Shown piece by piece: positions 49,098 through 64,000 of a stretch of 64,000 bases of DNA. Source of the DNA: Ignavibacteria bacterium (GTDB taxonomy: Bacteria > Bacteroidota > Ignavibacteria > UBA10030); assembly GCA_016873805.1 (NCBI GenBank), contig VGVZ01000012.1, positions 1 to 64,000 of the forward strand. Direction: 5' to 3'. The position numbers and the translations under genes were made by a program. A model generated the notes under the pieces. It did no database searches. It worked only from the letters and a program-made list of their open reading frames with translations, and was not told the origin of the DNA. Numbering within the stretch: the first letter of the stretch is position 1; every line of letters starts with the position of its first letter.

Positions 49098-52000
49098 TTA
49101 CTGAATCGCGACGCGGACGTCCAATCCCCCTTCGTTGATCGTCGAACCAGGAATGCGCGATCCACCTTCGTCCGGTTTGAACTTTGTGAACTTGTAGTAG
49201 ATCGATGCCGTCACGCGCGAGCTGAGGATGTACCGGATGCGCGGTTCCATTGTCGTACGGCTGAATCCCTCGAGCGGTTCTCCCTCCTTCTTGAAGTCGC
49301 GTTTCATGTCGTAGATTCGACGCGAGTTCTGCGAGTAGCTGTAGGTGAACGACATGTCCAAATCGTTCGACAACGACAGTCCGAAGAACGGAATCTCAAA
49401 CCCTCGCCGATTGTAGTTGGCAGACACCGAGATGTCCGTCGTGTTCATCTCCACGATGTTCTGCGCCGCAGGGGTGAGATCGTAGGAGGTTGTCGTGGAC
49501 AGACGGAATGACGCGCCAAGGTTACCCTTGCCAAGCTCGTGGAACGTAAACGTCAGACCAACCAGCGGCGCGAAACCGTACACAACTTGTTGGCTTTCCG
49601 TAACCTCTCCCGTTCCAGGGGTCAGCTTCCAACGACGCTTATACGTGGAGTTATAGGTATGGTCGAAGCTCACTCTCTGGGCGATACTTCCCAGGAGAGG
49701 AAGCTTTTCCAAGCCATCCCAGCGAATAGACCAGTTTGGACGGGGGAACAATTTTCCCAGAATCTTTGCCCCAATCGGAATAGCCTCAAATCCCTCTTCG
49801 AATGCCTGAGCGAGCTTCTCATCCAGCGCACGAATATCGCCGATATCCTGTTTCAATTCCTCGTACCTCTTGTTCACATCCTCCACACTGGTCTTGAGCA
49901 TCTTGAACAACAGGATCGGCGGAAACGTCATGAACGAGCGTTCCACATCGCCGTTGACGATTCGATTGAGTGGTGTTGGAACGCCGAGAGAATCCGTCGC
50001 GAGCGAGGTGTTCACATTGTACGACCACCCCAGGTTCCACGACAGCTCCACGCGTGCGCCTTCCCACAGCGGTCGGGAAGTGCGAATATTCACTCGATTT
50101 TTTTCGGAAAAGATATCCGTGAGATTGCCAAGCGGTGCACGGCGGCCCTGAGTGGTCGTCCCGGTCACAAAAGGAAAACTCCCTTTCGACTTGATAATGA
50201 CATCCCCATGCGGGTCGGAGGCCAGGCCGAGTTGATACATCAACGACGGACCGTATTCCGGAAGCGAATTCTGGATGAAGGGGATTCGGCCGAACATATT
50301 TGAAAATCCCGGTCTTCCGATCACTCCATTATGACGCGCCGAGTTGGTCATCGAAAAGGTCAGATTCACGCGGTCGAACTCAAAGAACGGCGTCTTGAGA
50401 AGAAGCCGCGTGATCTGATCGATTCGTTCCGAGAGTGGTATCGAAGCCTCGACGACCGCGGTATCGGTTGGAGATCGTGTTGGTTGAGGCGCCTTGGGAG
50501 ACCAGATTTCGTTGCCGATGAGGTTGAGATTGATATCCACGGAAATGGCCAGATTCCCGGACCAAGCGGAGCTCTTGCCCAGATCACCCGCTTGGAGATC
50601 GTTTTGCCAATCATAGCGGACCCCGTATCGTGCTGTCGGCGTGACAAACTTGTCCAACTTCAGAACAGCAGGAAGGACAGGTCGGGAATTGATCGCAACC
50701 GTCTGAGTATACGTCTGATCGATGCCGAAATCGATGAGTCGTTCGCCACCAAACATGGAACCGAGAATATCCGTGAACGATCGCTGTTCGCCAAGCTGGT
50801 CGAGCTCCAGGTGCACCAGACTGCTTGCAATATCAAGCTGATAGTCAGTGCCGAGATTCAGGAAACCGCCGTCCACAAAGGGCCAGCTGAATCCGAATCC
50901 TCGGTTCATTGTGAAACTGCGCGCCACTGGCTTGGGGGCTGTTTGGTTACGCACCTGCTCATGCGTCTGGCCGCGGGTCAGCGTGGAAGTCAGGTTGAAA
51001 TTCCGTGGCGTGAAGAACAGTTTCGTCTTCGACCATCCGTCGAGAATAAAGAGCTCCTCGGCCCAGGCGAATGGTTCAACATAGTTGTTCGGATTGAGCA
51101 GCAGATCGTAGCCCAACCGGAAATTCCACGACCACGAATTGAAACGCTCGGTCGTCGGATTTCGGCGCCATGAATTCGCATGAGAAAAACCAAAATTCAT
51201 CCGGTTGATGGTTTCCGTGACGAGCCAATACTCGATCGGCACCTTGAACCGGATATTGGGAAGTGCGATCGTTTCTGTGACACTCAGTGTTTTAGCTTGT
51301 TCACGAATCGCTTCTCCCTCCGCTTTGGCTTCGGCATCGTTCTTCCCGCTTTCTCTGGAAACCTGCTCGACGCGTCTCACCGCCTCATCCACGAGAATGT
51401 CCCTTCCCGGCAGGTACCGCGGATCCTGGACTCCCTCGACGTGCGAGTAAGAGAGGGGAATCGAAGTTCCGGCCCAGCTCTCCGGGAGAAACTTTTCGAA
51501 GTTCAGACCGGCATTGAGCGACCAGTTTCTGTCAAGATTGCGCGTGCCAAAACGTTCTTCCAGGCCGTGGAAATAGGGATCCCGCTCGGTCATGCCGAAC
51601 GTAATCGTTGCGACATCAGCGAACTTGATCGACGTATCGAAGCGGTACGCCCAACCTTTCGTATCATCCACATCGGTCAGCCGCATCTCATTGATCCAGA
51701 CTTCCCCCGTCACGCTGCTCTTTCCCTTATTCGGAGGATTTTCGACTCCCAGCACAAGGTAGCGCACATTCGTCAACGTCGGTTCACCCCGAACTTGATA
51801 CGACGCCCCCGGAGCTCCATCCGGCACCGGCACGCGCGCAGTCAGGACACCGACAGAATCACGACCAAGCTTGATCGCGGTGAGATCAACAAAATGAATA
51901 GTGATTTCGTTTGCCGGATCCCAACCGGAGCGGATGGGCGCACGATACTCATAGTAGTTCAGCGAGTCGGCGCCGAAGCGGAAGAATAATTCCACATCGT

Positions 52001-55000
52001 AGTTCGAGGTATCGGCGTACATCATCCGAAATCCGGGGCGGTCGTCGCCATGGACGAACATTTTCAGCGATCGGTAGTTGAACAGATCAAGCGGACGAAT
52101 GGCGAATCTCTTGATCGCCTGGCGCGATTCTCCATCCTTGAGATCGTGGATGAGAAGGGCCAGTGATTGCTCGTTGCCGCGAATGATCTGATCCGGTCGC
52201 GTCCGGTCGCGGGGGCGATCGACACCCGGCGGAGGGTTGTAGGTGGGGTTGTCCTCTGCGTTGACCACGCTCACCCGAAACGTACTGTCGTTCTTGATCA
52301 GAGATTCCCACTGGTTCCCGACAAGATTGAACTCTGCGATCCGGATGAGCACTTCATCGTCCGCTCCCGTAAACCAGAGTCGGACCGCCTCGATGTTTGT
52401 GAGCGTGGGATCGCCGATCTTTCGCGTGTATTCGTTGATCGGAATACGAATTTGATACCAGCGGTTTGCCCCTCCTCCCGTGACGAACTGCCGGAACGCC
52501 TGTTTCATCGTATCGAGAGAGATTTCGTATTCAAAGTAGCTGTTCAGTCGATCCACAACGTTGTTGAGGTTGAGATCTTCCGTATCGGCGTACCGCCCGC
52601 TCTCGGTGGTGAAGTTGTTCTGCGGACCGTTGACGCCTGTGTAGTCATCCGGATTGAGTGATCCGATCTGACGGGGGGCAACATAGTTGTCCCCGGAGGG
52701 ATCGCCGGAGAACTGAGGATAGGCCGCCACAAATGCCGAGTAACGCTGGCGTTCCTGGTCGTCGTTGAGGCCATCGAGACCGACATCTTGAACCGCAGGA
52801 TTGTTGATAAGACCGGTCCGGAGCGTACCCCCGAGTCCATCCTCGGTATCGAGTCTGCCGTTCGGGATGACGTCTTCGCTGAGGAACCCGAGGTTGATAT
52901 TCAGCTTCGCGTTCGGACGGGTCTTGTCCACACGCACCCAGAACTCAATGAAGTTGATATTTTCGTCGATCAGGTTGGTCGTCATCGAGCTCAGCATTCT
53001 CATGACCCCCCCCCATGCCTGCTGAGGGGACGCGAACAGACGCTGATTGAGGTTCAGAGAAGTATTGTACATCCCTCGTTCGCGAGGACGGAATCGCAGA
53101 TTGAGGACCGTGACATAATCTTCTCCGGATCGTACATCGCGCTCCGGCCATATTTCTCGCGGATGGACATCGCTTGGAAGGACATTGTACCACGTCGTCC
53201 TCGCCTTGTACTCGATCTTCGTCGTATCCGCAAGCAACAGACTTCTGACGATGGGATCGGAGAGGTTCACCGTCCGATCCGGCGGGACGTAGGCATCGAG
53301 TCCCAACACGTAGGCCGGTACGCTCGATTCCCTCCACATCCCGTAATGAACCCCAAGCGGAATGATCTTCCGCGCGCCTTCGAAGTCGTCGATGTAGGCA
53401 ATTCCCTTGTTCTGATCCTGGGCGATGGGACTTTTCCGGGTGTTCGGATCGGGGAGCATGTATGCCGCTTCACCCCTCAGCACGATGGACGATGGTTCTT
53501 TCGTTTGAATTCCCGGAAACCAGTTGAGGGCCGTCGTGAGAAAACCGGCGTCGATCGTCATTCCTGCATCGAAGCCAAGGATCGAATTGCTCACCGGCTC
53601 TTCGCCGAGCCGCACCTTGTCGCTCAGCGTTTCCTGATTCAGGTTGAGGAATGTGAATCCAAGAGTAGAATTCTTCCCCAGCGTCAGGTCACCTCGAGCC
53701 CCCACAAGGGATTTCGACGCAAGCTGGAAGAGATCATTCGCCTCGTACTTGATCTGCAGGTTCTTCCCGGGAACAAGCAGGCTCTGATCTTTGATCATCA
53801 CCTGACCGCTGAGATAGTCGACCGTATAGTGAACATTGGGCGTTTTGCGATCCCCATCCACGATCACCTCGACACTCCCCTCCACGACGTTGAATCCGAT
53901 GTTGTAACTCGACGCGATCGACGAGACGATGTTTCCTTTGAGGAAGAAATTGTTCTTCAGACTGTTGATCGCACCATTCAGCGTCGTGTCATAGACTTCA
54001 CGGAAGACAAAGGAATCGGCCAGTGCGATGTAGCGTGCCGTGTCCGAGGGCGTCGTCGGCTTGTAGCGCTCAAGAAAATAGTGCCGAATATTCTCTCCAA
54101 ACGGCTCCAGCGTCGGGAAGATCAATTCTCCACGATTTTCGTTGATGGTAATCCCCGACAGATAGTCGAATTTCCCGTCCGGTTGAGCCGCACCATCCTC
54201 CCGGTACCGATCGATCCGGAACAGTTCCATGAGATTGATGCCGTCGGGCATGATGGTCGTCTCCGGTTCCCGCCCGGGAGCCCGGTACTCGACATTCAAT
54301 TCGAATCCCTCTTTCTTCAGGCCTCGTCCCCCGAGGGGATAGATGTTCTTGAGCATGAGGTTCCATGCCGAGCGCATGCTGGGATCGAGATTGCGGGGAC
54401 GGATCAGCTTGAGGATGAGCTTGGCGGTCTTCGAGGTGTCCTTCGCGCCGAAATTTCCGACATCGCCGAACGGCGCAGGCAGGGTATAGGCCACAGCAAC
54501 GACCTGGTCCGGCTGAAGCGAGCGATTGAGCGAGACATACCCCAGATATTCGTTGTACATGTAGTCGGTGTTCGGCTCGAGCCGGACGAAGGTTCCCACC
54601 TCGACGCGGCCAGTGATGCTCACGAATTCCTGGCCTCGTCTCGCCGCGGTGTTCCGCTGGTACTTCAGGACCGAATCGATCTCGATAAACGCGACCACTT
54701 CCCGTTCGTTCGGATCGGAAATGATCCCCGTCCGCGTCACCCACACTTCCATATCCTGGATCTGCATCCTGCTGTCGACATCGAAAGGAATTCTCTTCAA
54801 TGCTTTTTCATAAATATTCCGATATGCCAGGTCAACGAAGAAGTGGTCTCGGGAAAAATCGGTGGCCCGTTTCTCAAACGGCGTGGGGCGTCCCCCGCCC
54901 GAGACCGTCAGCTCGCGGATCTGACCCTTTTTCTGCGACGCGATGGTGGTCAGTTTCAACGGGCCGAACTGCATCCCGGCTTTGACGCCGAACAGGGCCT

Positions 55001-56051
55001 GGTTGCTCGAGATGAAGCTCGAGTTCGTCGGAAGCGAAACGTTTCCCGCTTCGACGCTCTGGATGATCTCGTCCTCATATCCTTTGTACCGAACCTTCAG
55101 CTGGTTCTCGTACTCAAACGTGCGCTCCGAATTCCAATCGGCATCAATCCTCAGCTTGTCCCCGATCTCCCCTTTGGTATTGACCTGCAACTCCATGTTG
55201 AAATCGGGCTCGTTCCGCACCTGGTCGAGCGGATTGCTGGTAATGACATCCGATTTCGTACTTCGGAACGCTCCCCGCACGTCGACCGAGCCGTTGATTT
55301 GGAGACGCACGATGCTGGGACCGAAAATGCTGAAGATAGGATTCTTCGGTACCGGAACTTCGATGTTGGTGACCTGTCCGAGGATGTCGCCAAGATCTCT
55401 CTTCTTTTCAGTTTCGACCTCATATTTGCGGGCCATCGTCTCCCAGTTCGAACGGATGGTCCGCTCGAGGCGAAGATGCGCGTACTCTTCCAGAGAGAGA
55501 TCAAGGGGAATCCGGATATCCTTACCTGTCACAGTGCTCCTGATCCGGTAGCGATACTCTGTGGAATCGAGAGTCTCCTTCTGCCGCAACTGAATCGGGA
55601 GCCCCGCATAGAGGGGGTGGTCGGTGAGTCGAATCATTCGAACCGAGAGGGGATCGGTTCGCACATGGTGGAACACACTGAGACGAGCTGTGGAATCCCG
55701 GGGGAGAGCTTGAATTGCCGCGAGAAGGCTATCCGTCACACTGACACGTGCAGTCGTGTCCATGCGGCCTGAACGCTGAAGAATCGCTCGTGCGCGCCGG
55801 GACATGACCTGCCCTGGAACCACCCGGTCGGTATCGGAAGGGGATCGCACGAATCCCCCCGGCTGGGTCTGCTGGAAGAAGAGATCCTTGGAGAACTCAG
55901 ACGGGTTCAAGCCCGGGTACTCTTCCATCCGAACTTCGCCCTGAGCGGCCTCGCCCCCGGAAAGGAAGAGGATGAACACCAGCATCACTGCCAGGATCCG
56001 AAATCTGTCCTGTGTTGGGGTCACCATGAATCGTTTGAGACGAATCGTCAT
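49098..56051 (-). CDS. sprA: T9SS outer-membrane translocon protein SprA
   Basis: The ~2,317-residue protein is SprA (Sov), the 36-strand barrel that moves folded cargo across the outer membrane in type IX secretion. It has a signal peptide (about FRILAVMLVFILFLSGGEAAQG), two SprA N-terminal-type regions (KNPIFSIFGPSIVRLQINGSVDVRGAF; later KKEGFELNVEYRAPG), long repeated strand-rich barrel sequence and a final RVAIQ. The start may be ATG 56051, ATG 56027 or GTG 56075; none has a good ribosome site. Adjacent porX and a distal cargo protein with a sorting domain show a working T9SS. Confidence 0.95.
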   Translation of the reverse strand: MTIRLKRFMVTPTQDRFRILAVMLVFILFLSGGEAAQGEVRMEEYPGLNPSEFSKDLFFQQTQPGGFVRSPSDTDRVVPGQVMSRRARAILQRSGRMDTTARVSVTDSLLAAIQALPRDSTARLSVFHHVRTDPLSVRMIRLTDHPLYAGLPIQLRQKETLDSTEYRYRIRSTVTGKDIRIPLDLSLEEYAHLRLERTIRSNWETMARKYEVETEKKRDLGDILGQVTNIEVPVPKNPIFSIFGPSIVRLQINGSVDVRGAFRSTKSDVITSNPLDQVRNEPDFNMELQVNTKGEIGDKLRIDADWNSERTFEYENQLKVRYKGYEDEIIQSVEAGNVSLPTNSSFISSNQALFGVKAGMQFGPLKLTTIASQKKGQIRELTVSGGGRPTPFEKRATDFSRDHFFVDLAYRNIYEKALKRIPFDVDSRMQIQDMEVWVTRTGIISDPNEREVVAFIEIDSVLKYQRNTAARRGQEFVSITGRVEVGTFVRLEPNTDYMYNEYLGYVSLNRSLQPDQVVAVAYTLPAPFGDVGNFGAKDTSKTAKLILKLIRPRNLDPSMRSAWNLMLKNIYPLGGRGLKKEGFELNVEYRAPGREPETTIMPDGINLMELFRIDRYREDGAAQPDGKFDYLSGITINENRGELIFPTLEPFGENIRHYFLERYKPTTPSDTARYIALADSFVFREVYDTTLNGAINSLKNNFFLKGNIVSSIASSYNIGFNVVEGSVEVIVDGDRKTPNVHYTVDYLSGQVMIKDQSLLVPGKNLQIKYEANDLFQLASKSLVGARGDLTLGKNSTLGFTFLNLNQETLSDKVRLGEEPVSNSILGFDAGMTIDAGFLTTALNWFPGIQTKEPSSIVLRGEAAYMLPDPNTRKSPIAQDQNKGIAYIDDFEGARKIIPLGVHYGMWRESSVPAYVLGLDAYVPPDRTVNLSDPIVRSLLLADTTKIEYKARTTWYNVLPSDVHPREIWPERDVRSGEDYVTVLNLRFRPRERGMYNTSLNLNQRLFASPQQAWGGVMRMLSSMTTNLIDENINFIEFWVRVDKTRPNAKLNINLGFLSEDVIPNGRLDTEDGLGGTLRTGLINNPAVQDVGLDGLNDDQERQRYSAFVAAYPQFSGDPSGDNYVAPRQIGSLNPDDYTGVNGPQNNFTTESGRYADTEDLNLNNVVDRLNSYFEYEISLDTMKQAFRQFVTGGGANRWYQIRIPINEYTRKIGDPTLTNIEAVRLWFTGADDEVLIRIAEFNLVGNQWESLIKNDSTFRVSVVNAEDNPTYNPPPGVDRPRDRTRPDQIIRGNEQSLALLIHDLKDGESRQAIKRFAIRPLDLFNYRSLKMFVHGDDRPGFRMMYADTSNYDVELFFRFGADSLNYYEYRAPIRSGWDPANEITIHFVDLTAIKLGRDSVGVLTARVPVPDGAPGASYQVRGEPTLTNVRYLVLGVENPPNKGKSSVTGEVWINEMRLTDVDDTKGWAYRFDTSIKFADVATITFGMTERDPYFHGLEERFGTRNLDRNWSLNAGLNFEKFLPESWAGTSIPLSYSHVEGVQDPRYLPGRDILVDEAVRRVEQVSRESGKNDAEAKAEGEAIREQAKTLSVTETIALPNIRFKVPIEYWLVTETINRMNFGFSHANSWRRNPTTERFNSWSWNFRLGYDLLLNPNNYVEPFAWAEELFILDGWSKTKLFFTPRNFNLTSTLTRGQTHEQVRNQTAPKPVARSFTMNRGFGFSWPFVDGGFLNLGTDYQLDIASSLVHLELDQLGEQRSFTDILGSMFGGERLIDFGIDQTYTQTVAINSRPVLPAVLKLDKFVTPTARYGVRYDWQNDLQAGDLGKSSAWSGNLAISVDINLNLIGNEIWSPKAPQPTRSPTDTAVVEASIPLSERIDQITRLLLKTPFFEFDRVNLTFSMTNSARHNGVIGRPGFSNMFGRIPFIQNSLPEYGPSLMYQLGLASDPHGDVIIKSKGSFPFVTGTTTQGRRAPLGNLTDIFSEKNRVNIRTSRPLWEGARVELSWNLGWSYNVNTSLATDSLGVPTPLNRIVNGDVERSFMTFPPILLFKMLKTSVEDVNKRYEELKQDIGDIRALDEKLAQAFEEGFEAIPIGAKILGKLFPRPNWSIRWDGLEKLPLLGSIAQRVSFDHTYNSTYKRRWKLTPGTGEVTESQQVVYGFAPLVGLTFTFHELGKGNLGASFRLSTTTSYDLTPAAQNIVEMNTTDISVSANYNRRGFEIPFFGLSLSNDLDMSFTYSYSQNSRRIYDMKRDFKKEGEPLEGFSRTTMEPRIRYILSSRVTASIYYKFTKFKPDEGGSRIPGSTINEGGLDVRVAIQ

Positions 56052-56468
56052 GCCAGTCAGCAAGAGATAGTTCACCCGATGGACATCATTGAGTTGTTCG
56101 TCGATACGGGGAAAATCTCTGGACCCTCATCCGAGGGTTCCTGGGTTGGATTGGAACAACCGGTAACGAAAGAGTCGATTCTGCTCCAATATTGAGGTGG
56201 ACCAGCAATTCGATGCGGTGTTGCGGAGTCACAACGGTCGACACTGAACCAAGAATCTCGAAAAAACATACCAAAAAGAGGATTGAATATCAAGAGGAGC
56301 CAATCCATCCGCACGTCCCTCCATGGAACGAGTGACGGAACATCGACGTTGGGATGATCCGTCTGGCAATTCGTGACAAATCCCGCAGGGAAATCAGCGT
56401 TTGCTCCCCGCAGAGGCGATCGTTCACGTGTTGAGAAGAGAAGACAATCTGAGTATATTGCTCCCACG
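56052..56468. other. divergent intergenic region between sprA and lptF
   Basis: About 415 bases with no convincing gene; the open frame on the minus strand at 56072-56575 is Arg- and Cys-rich and overlaps lptF, so I discount it. The right end holds the lptF promoter at 56431-56459. I find no obvious sprA promoter by eye. Confidence 0.55.
56431..56459 (+). promoter_or_regulatory. lptF-lptG promoter
   Basis: TTGAGA (56431-56436), a 17-base spacer and TATATT (56454-56459). The predicted start falls near 56466, only about three bases before the lptF ATG at 56469, which has no Shine-Dalgarno site. The transcript may therefore be leaderless. Confidence 0.55.
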
Positions 56469-57845
56469 ATGCGAATCATCTGGAAACATATCCTTCGTGC
56501 ACACCTCGCCCCGTTTCTCTTTTCCCTGTGCGTTCTCATGGCGATCTTCATTCTCCAGTTCATCATGAAATTCATGGATCAGCTTGTCGGAAAAGGATTG
56601 AGCGCCGGAGTGATCGTGGAAGTGATCGTGCTCAATCTGTCATGGATGGTCGTGCTGGCCGTTCCGATGTCGGTTCTGGTCGCCACTCTCATGGCGTTCG
56701 GCGGGATGTCGTCGTCGAATGAGATCACGGCGATGCGAGCCGGAGGCCTCAGTCTTTATCGAATGATCGCGCCGGTCTTCATCGTTTCGCTTCTGATTTG
56801 TTTCCTCCTTATTCGTTTCAACAACGATGTGCTGCCGGATGCGAATCACAAGGCGAAGGTCCTCTCGAGCGACATCTACCGGAAGAAACCGACGCTCTCG
56901 ATTATTCCGGGGTTGTTTTCTCAGGATATTGGCGGATACACCATTCTCGTCCGGCGGACGTTTGAACACTCCAACGATTTGGAGGGGGTGACGATTTTCG
57001 ACCACACGAAGCCGGACGTTGCGTCGACCGTGACGGCGAATCGGGGAACCATCTCTTTTTCTCCCGACTACCGAAAGTTGATTATGGATCTCTATGGCGG
57101 AGAGATTCACGAGACCAACATTCAGACGCAGAAGAGCTATCGGACGATTCGGTTTACGAAACATCGCATTGCCATGAATGCCGATGGATTCGATTTTCAG
57201 CGGTCGCAGGAGAGTGCGTTTTCCCGAGGCGACCGAGAGTTGAGCGCGCAGGATATGCGTGAACGTGTCGACAGCATCATCACGCTGGAGGTTGCTGCGC
57301 GCAAACGGATCTCCACCATTGTGGGGAGGGATCTGGATGGGCTCCGATCCCCGAACATTCTGGGGAGCCCCCTTGTGGGGAAACCGGATGAAGCCGGAGG
57401 ATCGGCTCTAAGCCGGATCATGGGACTTCGCAACACGCTTTCCACCGAGCACTACCGCCTGGAAGAGATGTCTCGCAAACGGAGGGAGTACCTTGTGGAG
57501 ATTTACAAGAAGTACGCCATCCCCGTCGCCTGCATTGTCTTCGTCCTGATCGGCGCGCCGCTCGGCATCATGGCGCGACGCGGAACGTTCGGAGTCGCCG
57601 CCAGCCTCAGTCTCGGATTCTTCCTGCTGTACTGGGCATCCTTGATCGGGGGGGAAAAACTCGCGGACCGCGGGCTCATAGAACCATGGCTCGGGATGTG
57701 GATGGCGAATATCATTCTTGGCGGACTCGGCCTTTATCTGACCTTCATTTCCGCCCGCGAGAACATCACAATCGATTGGACGCGTCTCAAGCAGCTGATT
57801 CCCCGGTACTGGAGATACGACACCGAATCCCCTGAACACCAATGA
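56469..57845 (+). CDS. lptF: LPS export permease LptF
   Basis: The 458-residue protein is a LptF/LptG-family (YjgP/YjgQ) permease. It has paired N-terminal helices (MRIIWKHILRAHLAPFLFSLCVLMAIFILQF, VVLAVPMSVLVATLMAFGGMSSSNEITAMRAGGLSLYRM), a periplasmic jellyroll domain and C-terminal helices with KKYAIPVACIVFVLIGAPLGIMARRG. The loop is about 90 residues longer than E. coli LptF. ATG 56469 is chosen by the conserved start; an upstream frame to 56373 runs through the promoter. It overlaps lptG by four bases (ATGA). Confidence 0.92.
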   Translation: MRIIWKHILRAHLAPFLFSLCVLMAIFILQFIMKFMDQLVGKGLSAGVIVEVIVLNLSWMVVLAVPMSVLVATLMAFGGMSSSNEITAMRAGGLSLYRMIAPVFIVSLLICFLLIRFNNDVLPDANHKAKVLSSDIYRKKPTLSIIPGLFSQDIGGYTILVRRTFEHSNDLEGVTIFDHTKPDVASTVTANRGTISFSPDYRKLIMDLYGGEIHETNIQTQKSYRTIRFTKHRIAMNADGFDFQRSQESAFSRGDRELSAQDMRERVDSIITLEVAARKRISTIVGRDLDGLRSPNILGSPLVGKPDEAGGSALSRIMGLRNTLSTEHYRLEEMSRKRREYLVEIYKKYAIPVACIVFVLIGAPLGIMARRGTFGVAASLSLGFFLLYWASLIGGEKLADRGLIEPWLGMWMANIILGGLGLYLTFISARENITIDWTRLKQLIPRYWRYDTESPEHQ

Positions 57846-58945
57846 CGATTCTCGACCGATATATCGTCCGGCAATTCGTTACCAGCTTCCTCTTCGGCTT
57901 GATCGCATTCGTCCTCATCTTCCTCGTAATCGATATGATGGAGAAGCTCGGCGATTTTCTTGACACGAATGCGGAGACGTTGACCATCGTTCAGTACTAC
58001 CTCGCGTTTTCACCGGAAATCATCAAGCTGATGACTCCCGTGGCGATGCTGCTGGCTGCGTTGTTCGTCACGGGCCGGCTTGTCAGTCAGAATGAGCTCG
58101 CCGCCATGAAGTCGTCCGGCGTCTCACTCTACCGCATCATGATTCCTTTTCTGGCTGTTGCCTTGATCGTGAGTTTCGTCTCGATCTATTTCAACGGCTG
58201 GATCGTCCCTTACGCCAATCAAACGAAGTTCGACATTGAGCGGGCCCATCTGCGGCGCTCGATCTCCTCCTCAAGTCGATACGACATTTTCTTCCAGGAG
58301 GGACGGACGCGTCTCGTGTCGATCGGATTCTACGACAGCAACAGCCGACTGGCGTCGCGCGTGAGCATTCAGGAATTCTCAGACACCAATCTGACCGTGA
58401 TGACTCGCCGCTACGATGCGGGCATGATGCAATGGGGAGAGGAACGAGGCGAAGACAGCGTCAGAACCGGATGGATCCTGCTCAATGGGACTTATCGCGA
58501 ATTCCGGGATGGAGGATCCTCGCTTGAGTTTTTCGATCACCAAGCAGTTGGACGGCTGGCACTGACACCGACAGACATCGAGAAGAAGCAACGTAAACCT
58601 GATGAGCTCGACTACGGAGAATTGAAGGAATTCATTGCCAATCAGGCAAATGCAGGACAGGAAATCTCCCGGTGGCTCGTCGACTACCACGCGAAGATCG
58701 CATTCCCCTTTGCGAGTCTCATTGTGGTCCTATTCGGCGTCCCTTTTGCTGCGGCCAAGCCCCGCGGCGGCGTTGCGTTGGAATTCGGTGTTTCCGTCGC
58801 CGTCACGTTCATCTACCTCGCCTTCATGAAGACGAGCCAGGTTTTCGGATACAACGGAGACCTGAATCCCCTCCTCACTGCGTGGCTTGCGAACATCCTG
58901 TTCCTCGCCGCCGGCATCGTGAATCTGATGCGCGTACAGAAGTAG
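57842..58945 (+). CDS. lptG: LPS export permease LptG
   Basis: The 367-residue protein is the second permease of the LPS extractor. It begins MTILDRYIVRQFVTSFLFGLIAFVLIFLVIDMMEKLGDFLD and continues LAFSPEIIKLMTPVAMLLAALFVTGRLVSQNELAAMKSSGVSLYRIM, then a jellyroll and C-terminal helices with HAKIAFPFASLIVVLFGVPFAAAKPRGG. The four-base overlap with lptF ensures equal production of the heterodimer, which pairs with LptB encoded near 17.3 kb. Confidence 0.92.
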   Translation: MTILDRYIVRQFVTSFLFGLIAFVLIFLVIDMMEKLGDFLDTNAETLTIVQYYLAFSPEIIKLMTPVAMLLAALFVTGRLVSQNELAAMKSSGVSLYRIMIPFLAVALIVSFVSIYFNGWIVPYANQTKFDIERAHLRRSISSSSRYDIFFQEGRTRLVSIGFYDSNSRLASRVSIQEFSDTNLTVMTRRYDAGMMQWGEERGEDSVRTGWILLNGTYREFRDGGSSLEFFDHQAVGRLALTPTDIEKKQRKPDELDYGELKEFIANQANAGQEISRWLVDYHAKIAFPFASLIVVLFGVPFAAAKPRGGVALEFGVSVAVTFIYLAFMKTSQVFGYNGDLNPLLTAWLANILFLAAGIVNLMRVQK

Positions 58946-60065: not shown

Positions 60066-61841
60066 ATGAAGATCAAGTATCTCGACAGTCTCCGGCTCTA
60101 CCGCGCGTTTCTGGCAGGAGGAACCGCGGTCGTCAGAAACCAGGAACACCTGAACAAGATCAACGTGTTCCCTGTCCCCGACTCCGACACCGGAACGAAC
60201 CTCGCGGCCACCGTTCGCTCCATCATGGATGATTCCCGCGTGTACCCCTCATTCAAACAGACCTTTGGATCGATCGCAGACGCGGCATTGATGGGGGCGC
60301 GGGGAAACTCCGGAATCATCTTCGCCCAGTTTCTGTACGGCATGAGCCAGGAGCTCGGGAATGAACGCCGGATCTCGCCTCACTCCTTCGCCGAGGCAGC
60401 CAAGCGAGCGGTCGCCTACGTCTACACCTCCCTCGTGAAACCGGTCGAGGGGACGATCCTCACGGTGATTCACGACTGGGCGCACGCCATTGCCGAGGAG
60501 AGTCGCAGGACGAATGACTTCTTCCACATTTTTGTGGACGGCGTTCGCCACGCGCAACGATCGCTCAGCGAGACGCCGAAGAAACTCCGAGTGCTCGCCG
60601 AGGCGGGCGTGGTCGACGCCGGAGGACAGGGATTTGTCGATTTTCTCGAAGGCATCAGGAATCTCATTGTCCAGGGTTTCATCGTTGCCCCCGGATCGCG
60701 AGAAGCCTCACACCATAACCAGATCGACGATCCATTGCCGCACGAGGTCGATCTCATGTTCCAGTACTGTACAGAAGCGATGCTGAGCGAGTTGACAATC
60801 GATCTCCCCACATTACGGGATCACGCCGTCCCCTTCGGCGATTCGATTGTCGTTGCGGGATCGTCCCGCAAGATGCGGCTGCACATCCATACCAACGCTC
60901 CGTCGGAGCTCTTTTTCAAGCTCAAAGATGTCGGGACAATCAGCCAGATCAAAGTGACCGATATGCGGCATCAGTACAACGTCGCACATCACCGACGTTT
61001 CCCGATTGCGCTTGTCACCGATTCGACGTGCGATCTCCCGCAGGCGATTCTCGAACAATACCAGATCCATGTTATCCCCTTTCCCCTTTCGTTCGGCGAC
61101 ACGATGTTCCTCGATCGGGTGACCATCAATCCAAAGCAGTTTTATCATCTGCTCAGAACGCATCCGATCCATCCCAAAACCGCTCAGCCACCGGTACGGG
61201 AGGTGCAATCGCTCTTTTCATTCCTTGCGTCGCACTACGAAAGCATCATCGCGATTCATATCTCGGACAAACTGACCGGCATCTTCAACATGTCCACACA
61301 GGTCGGCCTCTCCCTGAACAAACGATCCGATGTGATCAATTCACGGAGTATCTCGGCGGGTCTTGGCCTCACTGTCTATCGTGCGGCTCTGGCAATCGAG
61401 CAGGGAACGTCTCATGATGACGTTCTCCGACTCGTGGCTGAGTGGACGAGAAAGTCGTTTCTGTATGCCGACATCCGGACCCTCAAGTATCTTGTCCGGG
61501 GGGGCCGAATCAGCGCGGCGAAGGGGGTTGTGGCAAGACTCTTCAATCTCCGTCCCCTGATTTCGGTCGATGCCGAAGGCAAGGGAGCTATTCTCGGCAA
61601 GTCAATTACCGACGACGGCAACGTGAAGAAGCTGCTCGCTCTCGTCGAAAAAGCTGCGGCAAATAACCCGGTATGGAACTACGCGGTCGTTCACGCGGAC
61701 GCTTCAGACCGTGCTCAGATGTATGCCGAAGAAGTCCAGGCGCTGGTCAGAAAACCCCCGCTGTATATCGAAGACATCTCTCCCGTTATCGGCGCGCACA
61801 ACGGGCTCGGTTGTGTTGGCGTTGCGCTTATGCTGGAATAG
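60066..61841 (+). CDS. DAK2-DegV fusion, single-chain fatty-acid-kinase-like protein
   Basis: The 591-residue protein joins what are normally two proteins. Residues 1-205 form a DAK2/DhaL nucleotide domain with the Mg-binding motif NVFPVPDSDTGTN (33-45; usual form PDGDTGTN). Residues ~225-305 match the FakA middle domain, with H273 and H275 in RLHIHTN, equivalent to essential histidines of FakA. From 312 a DegV (FakB) lipid-binding domain follows: LVTDSTCDLPQAI, AIHISDKLTGIFNMSTQVG, YLVRGGRISAAKGVVARLFNLRPLISV. FakA's own C-terminal domain is replaced by DegV. The likely role is phosphorylating exogenous fatty acids for membrane lipids. Confidence 0.88.
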   Translation: MKIKYLDSLRLYRAFLAGGTAVVRNQEHLNKINVFPVPDSDTGTNLAATVRSIMDDSRVYPSFKQTFGSIADAALMGARGNSGIIFAQFLYGMSQELGNERRISPHSFAEAAKRAVAYVYTSLVKPVEGTILTVIHDWAHAIAEESRRTNDFFHIFVDGVRHAQRSLSETPKKLRVLAEAGVVDAGGQGFVDFLEGIRNLIVQGFIVAPGSREASHHNQIDDPLPHEVDLMFQYCTEAMLSELTIDLPTLRDHAVPFGDSIVVAGSSRKMRLHIHTNAPSELFFKLKDVGTISQIKVTDMRHQYNVAHHRRFPIALVTDSTCDLPQAILEQYQIHVIPFPLSFGDTMFLDRVTINPKQFYHLLRTHPIHPKTAQPPVREVQSLFSFLASHYESIIAIHISDKLTGIFNMSTQVGLSLNKRSDVINSRSISAGLGLTVYRAALAIEQGTSHDDVLRLVAEWTRKSFLYADIRTLKYLVRGGRISAAKGVVARLFNLRPLISVDAEGKGAILGKSITDDGNVKKLLALVEKAAANNPVWNYAVVHADASDRAQMYAEEVQALVRKPPLYIEDISPVIGAHNGLGCVGVALMLE

Positions 61842-61843
61842 AC

Positions 61844-62626
61844 ATGCTCCCCGATGTCGCCACCACATACGCATCCTCCACCCTCGTCGTCTTCGTCTAT
61901 ATGCTCACGGTGTTTGCCATTGCGATCGTGAGACGTGATAATTCCATCGTGGATGTTGCCTGGGGTCCGGGGTTTGCTCTTATTGCCGCGACAACGTTCC
62001 TTCTGCACTCCGTCTCCCACTCCAGAATGGTTTTGCTTGTGGTTCTTGTTGCTCTCTGGGGAACAAGGCTTGCCGCACATATTTTTTTCCGTAACAAGGG
62101 GAAGGGAGAAGATTTTCGATATGCGGCCTGGAGACGCAGCTGGGGGAGGATGTTCTACGTCAGGAGCTTCTTCTTCATTTACATGCTGCAGGGATTTTTG
62201 ATGCTGATCATCGGTTACCCGATCGTGCTCGTGGGATCGATCGATCAGCCGGCGTTGAACTTCGTTGACTGGATCGGCGCCGGAGTGTGGTTTCTCGGTT
62301 TTGGCTTTGAAGCAGATGGGGACTACCAGCTGTTGCTATTCAAGAAGAATGAGGCAAACCGTGGGAAGGTGCTGCGGAGCGGCTTGTGGAAGTACACTCG
62401 CCATCCCAACTACTTCGGCGAAGCTGTGCTATGGTGGGGACTGTTTCTGATTGCGTCTTCCTCACCGCACGGATGGACTGCAATCATCAGCCCGCTCGTA
62501 ATCACATTTCTTTTGCTACGGATATCCGGCGTGACGATGTTGGAGAAGAAGTATTCGGACAATCCGGAGTATGAAGAATACAAGAGAACCACGAATGCGT
62601 TCTTCCCCTGGTTTCCGAGGAGGTAG
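61844..62626 (+). CDS. DUF1295 / steroid 5-alpha-reductase-like membrane protein
   Basis: The 260-residue protein has about six membrane helices and the DUF1295 signature: NSIVDVAWGPGF, WGTRLAAHIFFRNKGKGEDFRYAAWRRSWG, LLLFKKNEANRGKVLRSGLWKYTRHPNYFGEAVLWWGLFL. The GLWKYTRHPNYFGE block is the conserved NADPH/SAM-site-like motif shared with isoprenylcysteine methyltransferases and 5-alpha-reductases. Start at ATG 61844, two bases after the DAK2-DegV stop, so both may be one operon with a lipid theme. Substrate unknown. Confidence 0.88.
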   Translation: MLPDVATTYASSTLVVFVYMLTVFAIAIVRRDNSIVDVAWGPGFALIAATTFLLHSVSHSRMVLLVVLVALWGTRLAAHIFFRNKGKGEDFRYAAWRRSWGRMFYVRSFFFIYMLQGFLMLIIGYPIVLVGSIDQPALNFVDWIGAGVWFLGFGFEADGDYQLLLFKKNEANRGKVLRSGLWKYTRHPNYFGEAVLWWGLFLIASSSPHGWTAIISPLVITFLLLRISGVTMLEKKYSDNPEYEEYKRTTNAFFPWFPRR

Positions 62627-63286: not shown

Positions 63287-63289
63287 TCA
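63256..63289 (-). terminator. 15-bp perfect hairpin at the end of the T9SS cargo gene
   Basis: TGACTCGAAATCCGT (63256-63270) and its exact complement at 63275-63289 enclose a four-base loop. The stop codon of the leftward gene lies in the stem. There is no T-run directly after it; six Ts occur in the loop of the next hairpin about 15 bases on. It may act as a terminator or as an mRNA 3'-end protector. Confidence 0.4.
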
Positions 63290-64000
63290 CTTCGCCAGGA
63301 CCACTTTTCGAGTCTCCACAAAATCTCCCGCCACCATCCGCAACAAATAGATTCCCGTCGGTAAATCGTTTGCGTTCCAGGTCGCATGGAAGATCCCTGC
63401 CGCCCGGACACCATCCACCAGCACCGCCACTTCCCTGCCGAGCACGTCATAGATCGTCAGACTCATCTCGACCGTAGTCATTATCTCAAACCGAATAACA
63501 GTCGATGGATTGAACGGATTCGGATAGTTCTGCCGCAACGCAAACTGCGTGGGGATTCCCTCCGGCCCTTCGATGCTCGAGACGATGGGAGTACCCGTGC
63601 CGCTGACTGCCACCGAATCAGGCGTTGCTCCGGTTCCGGCAAAAACGATGAATCCGGATTTCGCTCCGGCGCTCGTCGGTCTGAATGATACCGTAAAGAG
63701 GGTGCTTTTACCCGAGTCGATCGTTGCGCCTCCGGGCGATACCGAAAACTCTGCGTTCGTACAAGAGATCGAACTGAACGTGATCGGAGACGTCCCTGTG
63801 TTTGAGACTCTGACAGAATCCGTTTTTGTTCCATTCACGACCACGCTTCCGAAATTCAACGAACGTGAGCTGAATGAGTAGGCCAGCGTTGTTCCCGTGC
63901 CGCTCAATGAAATCCGGACGGTATCTCCTCCGGCCGTCGTATGGGTGATGATGCCGGATTTCGCACCTGCCGAGGTCGGGGCAAATCGCACAAAGATGGG
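63287..64000 (-). CDS. T9SS cargo protein with choice-of-anchor/ASH-like domains (N-terminus outside window)
   Basis: The visible 238 residues are the C-terminal part of a secreted protein whose frame stays open to the right edge. Two tandem immunoglobulin-like (ASH/choice-of-anchor D) units repeat the phrase PTSAGAKSG (FAPTSAGAKSG, FRPTSAGAKSG) with NFGSVVVNGTKTDSVRVSNTG between them. The last ~80 residues are a type A T9SS sorting domain: FALRQNYPNPFNPSTVIRFEI, LTIYDVLGREVAVLVDG, GIFHATWNANDLPTGIYLLRM, ETRKVVLAK. It would be exported by Sec, pass through SprA and be released or anchored after cleavage. Confidence 0.9.
   Translation of the reverse strand, partial: PIFVRFAPTSAGAKSGIITHTTAGGDTVRISLSGTGTTLAYSFSSRSLNFGSVVVNGTKTDSVRVSNTGTSPITFSSISCTNAEFSVSPGGATIDSGKSTLFTVSFRPTSAGAKSGFIVFAGTGATPDSVAVSGTGTPIVSSIEGPEGIPTQFALRQNYPNPFNPSTVIRFEIMTTVEMSLTIYDVLGREVAVLVDGVRAAGIFHATWNANDLPTGIYLLRMVAGDFVETRKVVLAK

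Follow-up and report, generated by a model that had tools for sequence, protein, structure and literature searches.

Results

One reading frame joins Dak2, middle and DegV domains

The window, a stretch of 64,000 nucleotides from an Ignavibacteria bacterium, contains an open, uninterrupted frame with an ATG start that encodes a protein of 591 amino acids (Table 1). An earlier note, made from the sequence, had described this protein as a DAK2 domain, a middle domain and a complete DegV domain on one chain, and Pfam and NCBIfam searches confirm that architecture. Residues 314-589 span positions 2-278 of the 280-position Pfam DegV profile. The NCBIfam YloV and FakA models cover only residues 14-309 and 17-305, respectively, and TIGR00762, the NCBIfam DegV domain model, scores above its cut-off over residues 314-588. 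Because the FakA-type models end by residues 305-309 and TIGR00762 passes, the C-terminal part is a full DegV domain, standing in place of FakA_C, the FakB-docking domain. A further FakA_C hidden in the chain was considered and rejected, since the FakA-like_C matches of the relatives overlap the DegV region and occur in stand-alone DegVs too. A C-terminal Glu was likewise dropped as a FakA_C-like mark; a terminal Glu or Asp is found in 58 of 78 fusions and also in several stand-alone DegVs. With the DhaK/DhaL dihydroxyacetone kinases the protein shares the Dak2/DhaL domain, but it lacks the DhaK substrate domain (no Pfam match to Dak1), and the dihydroxyacetone kinase models of NCBIfam match it weakly.

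FakA and FakB are two distinct polypeptides in the Gram-positive species used to work out the system. In the window genome (99.13% complete), both parts lie on one chain, and this ORF is the sole DegV gene and the sole Dak2 gene.

Table 1. Positions of the fused ORF, its domains and key residues, and the adjoining gene in the window
Feature	Position	Strand	Evidence
ORF of the predicted fused fatty-acid kinase (FakA_N - middle - FakB/DegV)	60066..61841	+	ORF call, Pfam; 93 aligned relatives
Dak2 (DhaL/FakA_N) nucleotide-binding domain, residues 36-198	60171..60659	+	Pfam 3.7e-33; FakA_N fold match
FakA-like_M middle domain, residues 232-305	60759..60980	+	Pfam 1.3e-16
Cys235, equivalent to S. 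aureus FakA Cys240 (catalytic triad)	60768..60770	+	Invariant, 94/94; PMC9136124
His273 and His275, equivalent to FakA His282/His284 (catalytic triad)	60882..60890	+	Invariant, 94/94; PMC9136124
Complete DegV/FakB domain (predicted fatty-acid carrier), residues 314-589	61005..61832	+	Pfam 2.3e-67
Thr372, equivalent to FakB1 Thr62 (carboxylate network)	61179..61181	+	Thr/Ser in 94/94; PMC8892158
Thr404, equivalent to FakB1 Ser95 (carboxylate network)	61275..61277	+	Ser/Thr in 94/94
Arg481, equivalent to FakB1 Arg173 (kinase reaction)	61506..61508	+	Invariant, 94/94; PMC9136124, PMC8892158
Ile514, at the FakB1 Arg205 position	61605..61607	+	Arg in only 6/94 fusions
His578, equivalent to FakB1 His270 (carboxylate network)	61797..61799	+	His 43, Asn 40, Ser 8, Tyr 3 of 94
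DUF1295 integral membrane protein (steroid-reductase/PEMT/ICMT-like)	61844..62626	+	Pfam 5.9e-74; 2 bp downstream of fusion

The fusion is shared by several phyla

Scanning 84,980 species genomes turned up no fewer than 562 relatives, of which the best 80 (L029-L108) match the query across nearly its full length. The window protein and 93 aligned relatives from Bacteroidota, Cloacimonadota, Aminicenantes, Marinimicrobia and Thermotogota make up the 94 fusions compared below; Dak2, FakA-like_M and DegV are all present in each of the 60 relatives scanned by Pfam. A survey of the kind proposed in the earlier note found the same architecture in 13 of 198 genomes of the window's phylum. Within the window's own order it occurs in only 4 of 98 genomes, so the gene is patchy; as most of these relatives lack it, phospholipid synthesis in the order does not depend on it.

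Of 30 further genomes that carry the fusion, 27 have all the DegVs found in them within frames of fusion length. The remaining three, all Thermotogota, have stand-alone DegVs in addition, as well as another, 559-codon Dak2 gene; L152, the copy that was scanned, proved to be a canonical FakA (FakA-like_C match at 9.5e-75). An extra stand-alone DegV accompanies the fusion in some Bacteroidota families.

Catalytic and carboxylate-site residues are largely retained

In S. aureus FakA the catalytic residues are Cys240, His282 and His284 (PMC9136124). In FakB1, Arg173 is needed for phosphorylation and the fatty-acid carboxylate is held by a network of Thr62, Ser95, Ser171 and His270 (PMC9136124, PMC8892158). 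The two middle-domain histidines pointed out in the earlier note are present, and their partner cysteine is Cys235 (Table 1). The Dak2 nucleotide site, including the GNS motif, is also invariant across the 94 aligned fusions (D39, D41, T42, N45, N81 and S82). The earlier note had read the motif PDSDTGTN, in place of PDGDTGTN, as a hint of an altered substrate. The motif was read correctly, but the hint was rejected, as the Gly position varies freely among the 94 fusions (G/A/S/K in 44/44/4/2).

On the carrier side, the Ser171 position holds Gly or Ser, and Thr once, in the 94 aligned fusions. Alignment to solved DegVs places the FakB tunnel-roof elements in the window DegV. With the carboxylate-site residues largely kept, the DegV tunnel is predicted to bind a fatty acid.

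An AlphaFold2 model of the fusion, built from 60 sequences, has a mean pLDDT of 90.3 and a pTM of 0.86, with disorder only at residues 206-223. In Foldseek searches of the PDB, the modelled Dak2 half matches S. aureus FakA_N (TM 0.88-0.94, rmsd 1.0-1.3 A), and the modelled DegV half resembles DegV/FakB structures with bound fatty acid (target-normalised TM 0.82-0.93, rmsd 2.2-3.5 A). A DegV cavity that was closed or unsuited to lipid would have spoken against a tethered carrier, as the earlier note pointed out; the predicted fold is instead that of fatty-acid-binding DegVs. Sequence and local fold can be aligned to the S. suis FakA chain from end to end, yet the superposition is poor (TM 0.34, rmsd 25 A), so the domains are placed differently or flexibly.

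The FakA-docking arginine is lost from most fusions

Arg205 of FakB1 docks FakB onto FakA_C (Glu548) and onto membranes, and Arg173 and Arg205 have been described as completely conserved among FakBs (PMC9136124, PMC8892158). The arginine that the earlier note found missing from the DegV region corresponds to Arg205, and its absence is a family trait: the position is occupied by Arg in only 6 of the 94 fusions, with 64 Phe, 13 Leu, 5 Ile, 3 Val and others. Arg205 is kept in all 20 stand-alone DegVs that have Arg173 (10 from Thermotogota, 5 from the window's phylum and 5 solved structures), including the Thermotogota proteins that coexist with a canonical, FakA_C-bearing FakA. The difference between fused and stand-alone DegVs gives a Fisher p of 2e-17, computed regardless of relatedness. 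At least six changes are required on the DegV tree for the Arg/non-Arg state, and two for the fused/unfused label.

The six fusions that keep Arg205 are L008, L012-L015 and L096. Family f15 (L012-L015) alone escapes the loss at family level; in its genomes the fusion is accompanied by a stand-alone DegV that has both Arg173 and Arg205.

The fusions have thus, for the most part, lost FakA_C as well as Arg205, the two partners in the published docking contact, and retain every catalytic residue. This loss around a preserved kinase core is the pattern expected of a tethered carrier. From what is described for FakB1, losing Arg205 would also be expected to weaken docking on the membrane. The face of the FakB1 membrane-insertion helix (Ala177, Trp180, Val181, Leu184 and Leu185) is hydrophobic in 74-100% of fusions, depending on the position, and membrane access may thus persist without Arg205.

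Lipid-related genes neighbour the fusion

As the earlier note had observed, a DUF1295 gene begins two bases past the fusion stop codon. DUF1295, the commonest neighbour of the fusion, is a family for which we know of no established function; in the open literature searched, the name appears once each in 14 papers and in none of their titles or abstracts. Among the 83 loci with enough flank for a neighbour count, 41 have DUF1295 immediately after the fusion in the same orientation, across several phyla, and a redoxin or PlsY sometimes follows it; the DUF1295 identity was confirmed by Pfam in ten loci and, in addition, in L004 and L105. The window genome holds one clear DUF1295 gene, that beside the fusion, and one marginal match, and this single clear copy indicates that the adjacency is not due to chance.

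PlsY consumes acyl-phosphate. In four or more lineages its gene follows the fusion closely and is read in the same direction, either directly after it (L005-L007), after a cupin gene (L027), after DUF1295 (L041, L105) or after DUF1295 and a redoxin (L108). This adjacency is a minority arrangement; in the window genome, PlsX and two PlsY genes are encoded elsewhere. All of the relatives have PlsY, with or without the fusion, so that its mere presence in a genome is not evidence.

In other loci redoxins lie downstream of the fusion. A lipocalin-like gene stands directly upstream in many Cloacimonadota and Marinimicrobia (loci L029, L030, L031, L032, L036, L038, L043, L051 and L072), an operon that pairs the kinase gene with another lipid binder.

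Several further ORFs of the window were assigned by eye. Two consecutive ORFs upstream of the fusion region (56373-58945, plus strand) resemble an LptF/LptG permease pair, and a 2325-codon ORF (49098-56075, minus strand) resembles SprA, an outer-membrane protein of type IX secretion and gliding. An ORF at 63287-63991 (minus strand) contains Ig-like/ASH-type repeats and carries the C-terminal motif NYPNPFNPST, which is characteristic of sorting domains in type IX secretion.

Discussion

We propose that the ORF encodes a self-contained, single-chain fatty-acid kinase, a reading to which we assign a probability of about 0.75. The gene census, the invariant residues, the tunnel-roof elements, the PlsY neighbours and the structural model favour this option, one of two that the earlier note had raised; variation at the FakB His270 position counts against it, as do the expected weakening of membrane docking, a commonest neighbour with no established function, the minority status of the PlsY adjacency, the poor overall fit to S. 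suis FakA and the lack of the gene in most genomes of its order. The Dak2 domain would bind Mg-ATP, and the middle domain would supply the Cys-His-His catalytic residues and probably a dimer contact. The DegV domain, on its short linker, would hold the fatty acid and offer its carboxylate, together with Arg481, to the gamma-phosphate of ATP, acting in cis or in trans within a dimer. PlsY could then draw on the acyl-phosphate product to carry out the first acylation of glycerol-3-phosphate, or PlsX could convert it to acyl-ACP. We further propose that FakA_C is absent, and Arg205 released from selection and replaced mostly by hydrophobic residues, because the carrier is covalently attached.

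The protein would probably work like FakA and FakB together, yet it stands outside the two-component system as it is defined, because FakA_C, the docking arginine and a separate FakB are all absent. It shares with FakA of Staphylococcus aureus and YloV of Bacillus subtilis the Dak2 domain, the middle domain, the nucleotide motif and the Cys-His-His residues, but where those proteins have FakA_C, a lipid-free, shortened FakB relative that docks free FakB, it has a full DegV domain. With FakB1 and FakB2 it shares a full-length DegV domain, the Thr62/Ser95-type carboxylate site, Arg173 and, in the model, the fold (target-normalised TM up to 0.93); it differs in that its carrier is covalently joined to the kinase and in that Arg205 is replaced, by Ile here and mostly by Phe in the family.

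A broader interpretation, which we hold tentatively and place somewhat below even odds, is that the fusions form a separately evolving, widespread class of fatty-acid kinase whose carrier never leaves. In such enzymes FakA_C is gone and the docking arginine has become hydrophobic; the tethered carrier would shuttle between the membrane and the kinase site, the acyl-phosphate would be delivered to a co-transcribed PlsY, and DUF1295 would act on the same lipid.

The fused kinase might instead act on another carboxylic lipid, such as a branched, hydroxy, isoprenoid or DUF1295-modified acid, its acyl-phosphate feeding a lipid-modification pathway. The frequent downstream DUF1295, a relative of steroid reductases and lipid methyltransferases, would fit such a substrate, as would the upstream lipocalins, the downstream redoxins and the variable His270 position. 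We nevertheless consider it unlikely, given that the remaining carboxylate-site and catalytic residues all match FakA and FakB, that PlsY neighbours the fusion in several lineages, and that about half of the fusions have no adjacent DUF1295. The altered substrate that the earlier note had offered as its other option found no positive support.

Considerably less probable is a role for the fusion as a kinase subunit serving separate, dissociable DegV carriers, its own DegV acting as a docking module like FakA_C. No DegV was found outside the fusions in the window genome and in 27 of 30 others, and the DegV domain keeps the catalytic Arg173 and the tunnel-roof elements, both of which FakA_C lacks. 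These observations outweigh the structural relationship of FakA_C itself to FakB (PMC9136124), a weak FakA-like_C overlap with the DegV region in 22 of 60 fusions (and likewise in 2 of 10 stand-alone DegVs), and the extra stand-alone DegVs of Thermotogota and some Bacteroidota families. An artefact in which adjacent fakA and fakB genes were joined by a missed stop, a frameshift or misassembly, possible a priori and, as a frameshift, named in the earlier note as what would undo the single-chain kinase idea, can be dismissed, since 93 aligned relatives from five phyla have the same junction and all three domains occur in 60 of the 60 scanned.

If the single-chain kinase operates as proposed, it bears on how FakB and FakA meet, a matter of dispute in which FakB is held either to present directly to the kinase domain or to hand over by way of the C-terminal domain (PMC11617999). 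A naturally occurring single chain that does without the docking domain would argue that catalysis with a tethered carrier does not require FakA_C, and the fusion offers a construct that may allow the active arrangement to be captured. Fatty-acid kinase is regarded as a Gram-positive route, with acyl-CoA or acyl-ACP synthetases generally serving in Gram-negative bacteria (reviewed in PMC10146087). With the fusion family, a likely acyl-phosphate route reaches into Bacteroidota, Cloacimonadota, Marinimicrobia and Aminicenantes. DUF1295 also gains a firm context in lipid metabolism, namely lipid activation. Our search of the open literature, with subscription papers outside its scope, found no description of a fused FakA-FakB or DegV+DAK2 protein; the fusion thus appears to be both widespread across phyla and undescribed as far as that literature shows.

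In the full-length tree the window protein groups with Marinimicrobia and Cloacimonadota (starred set, 96), apart from the carriers of its own phylum. This placement tentatively suggests horizontal transfer of the window's fusion gene, whose branch is long. A set of divergent stand-alone DegVs in the window's phylum (L016, L017 and L022-L025) has lost the GGR motif, and with it Arg173, and is variable at the Arg205 position. Four of these occur alongside a fusion, and the set may represent lipid carriers with no role in the kinase reaction.
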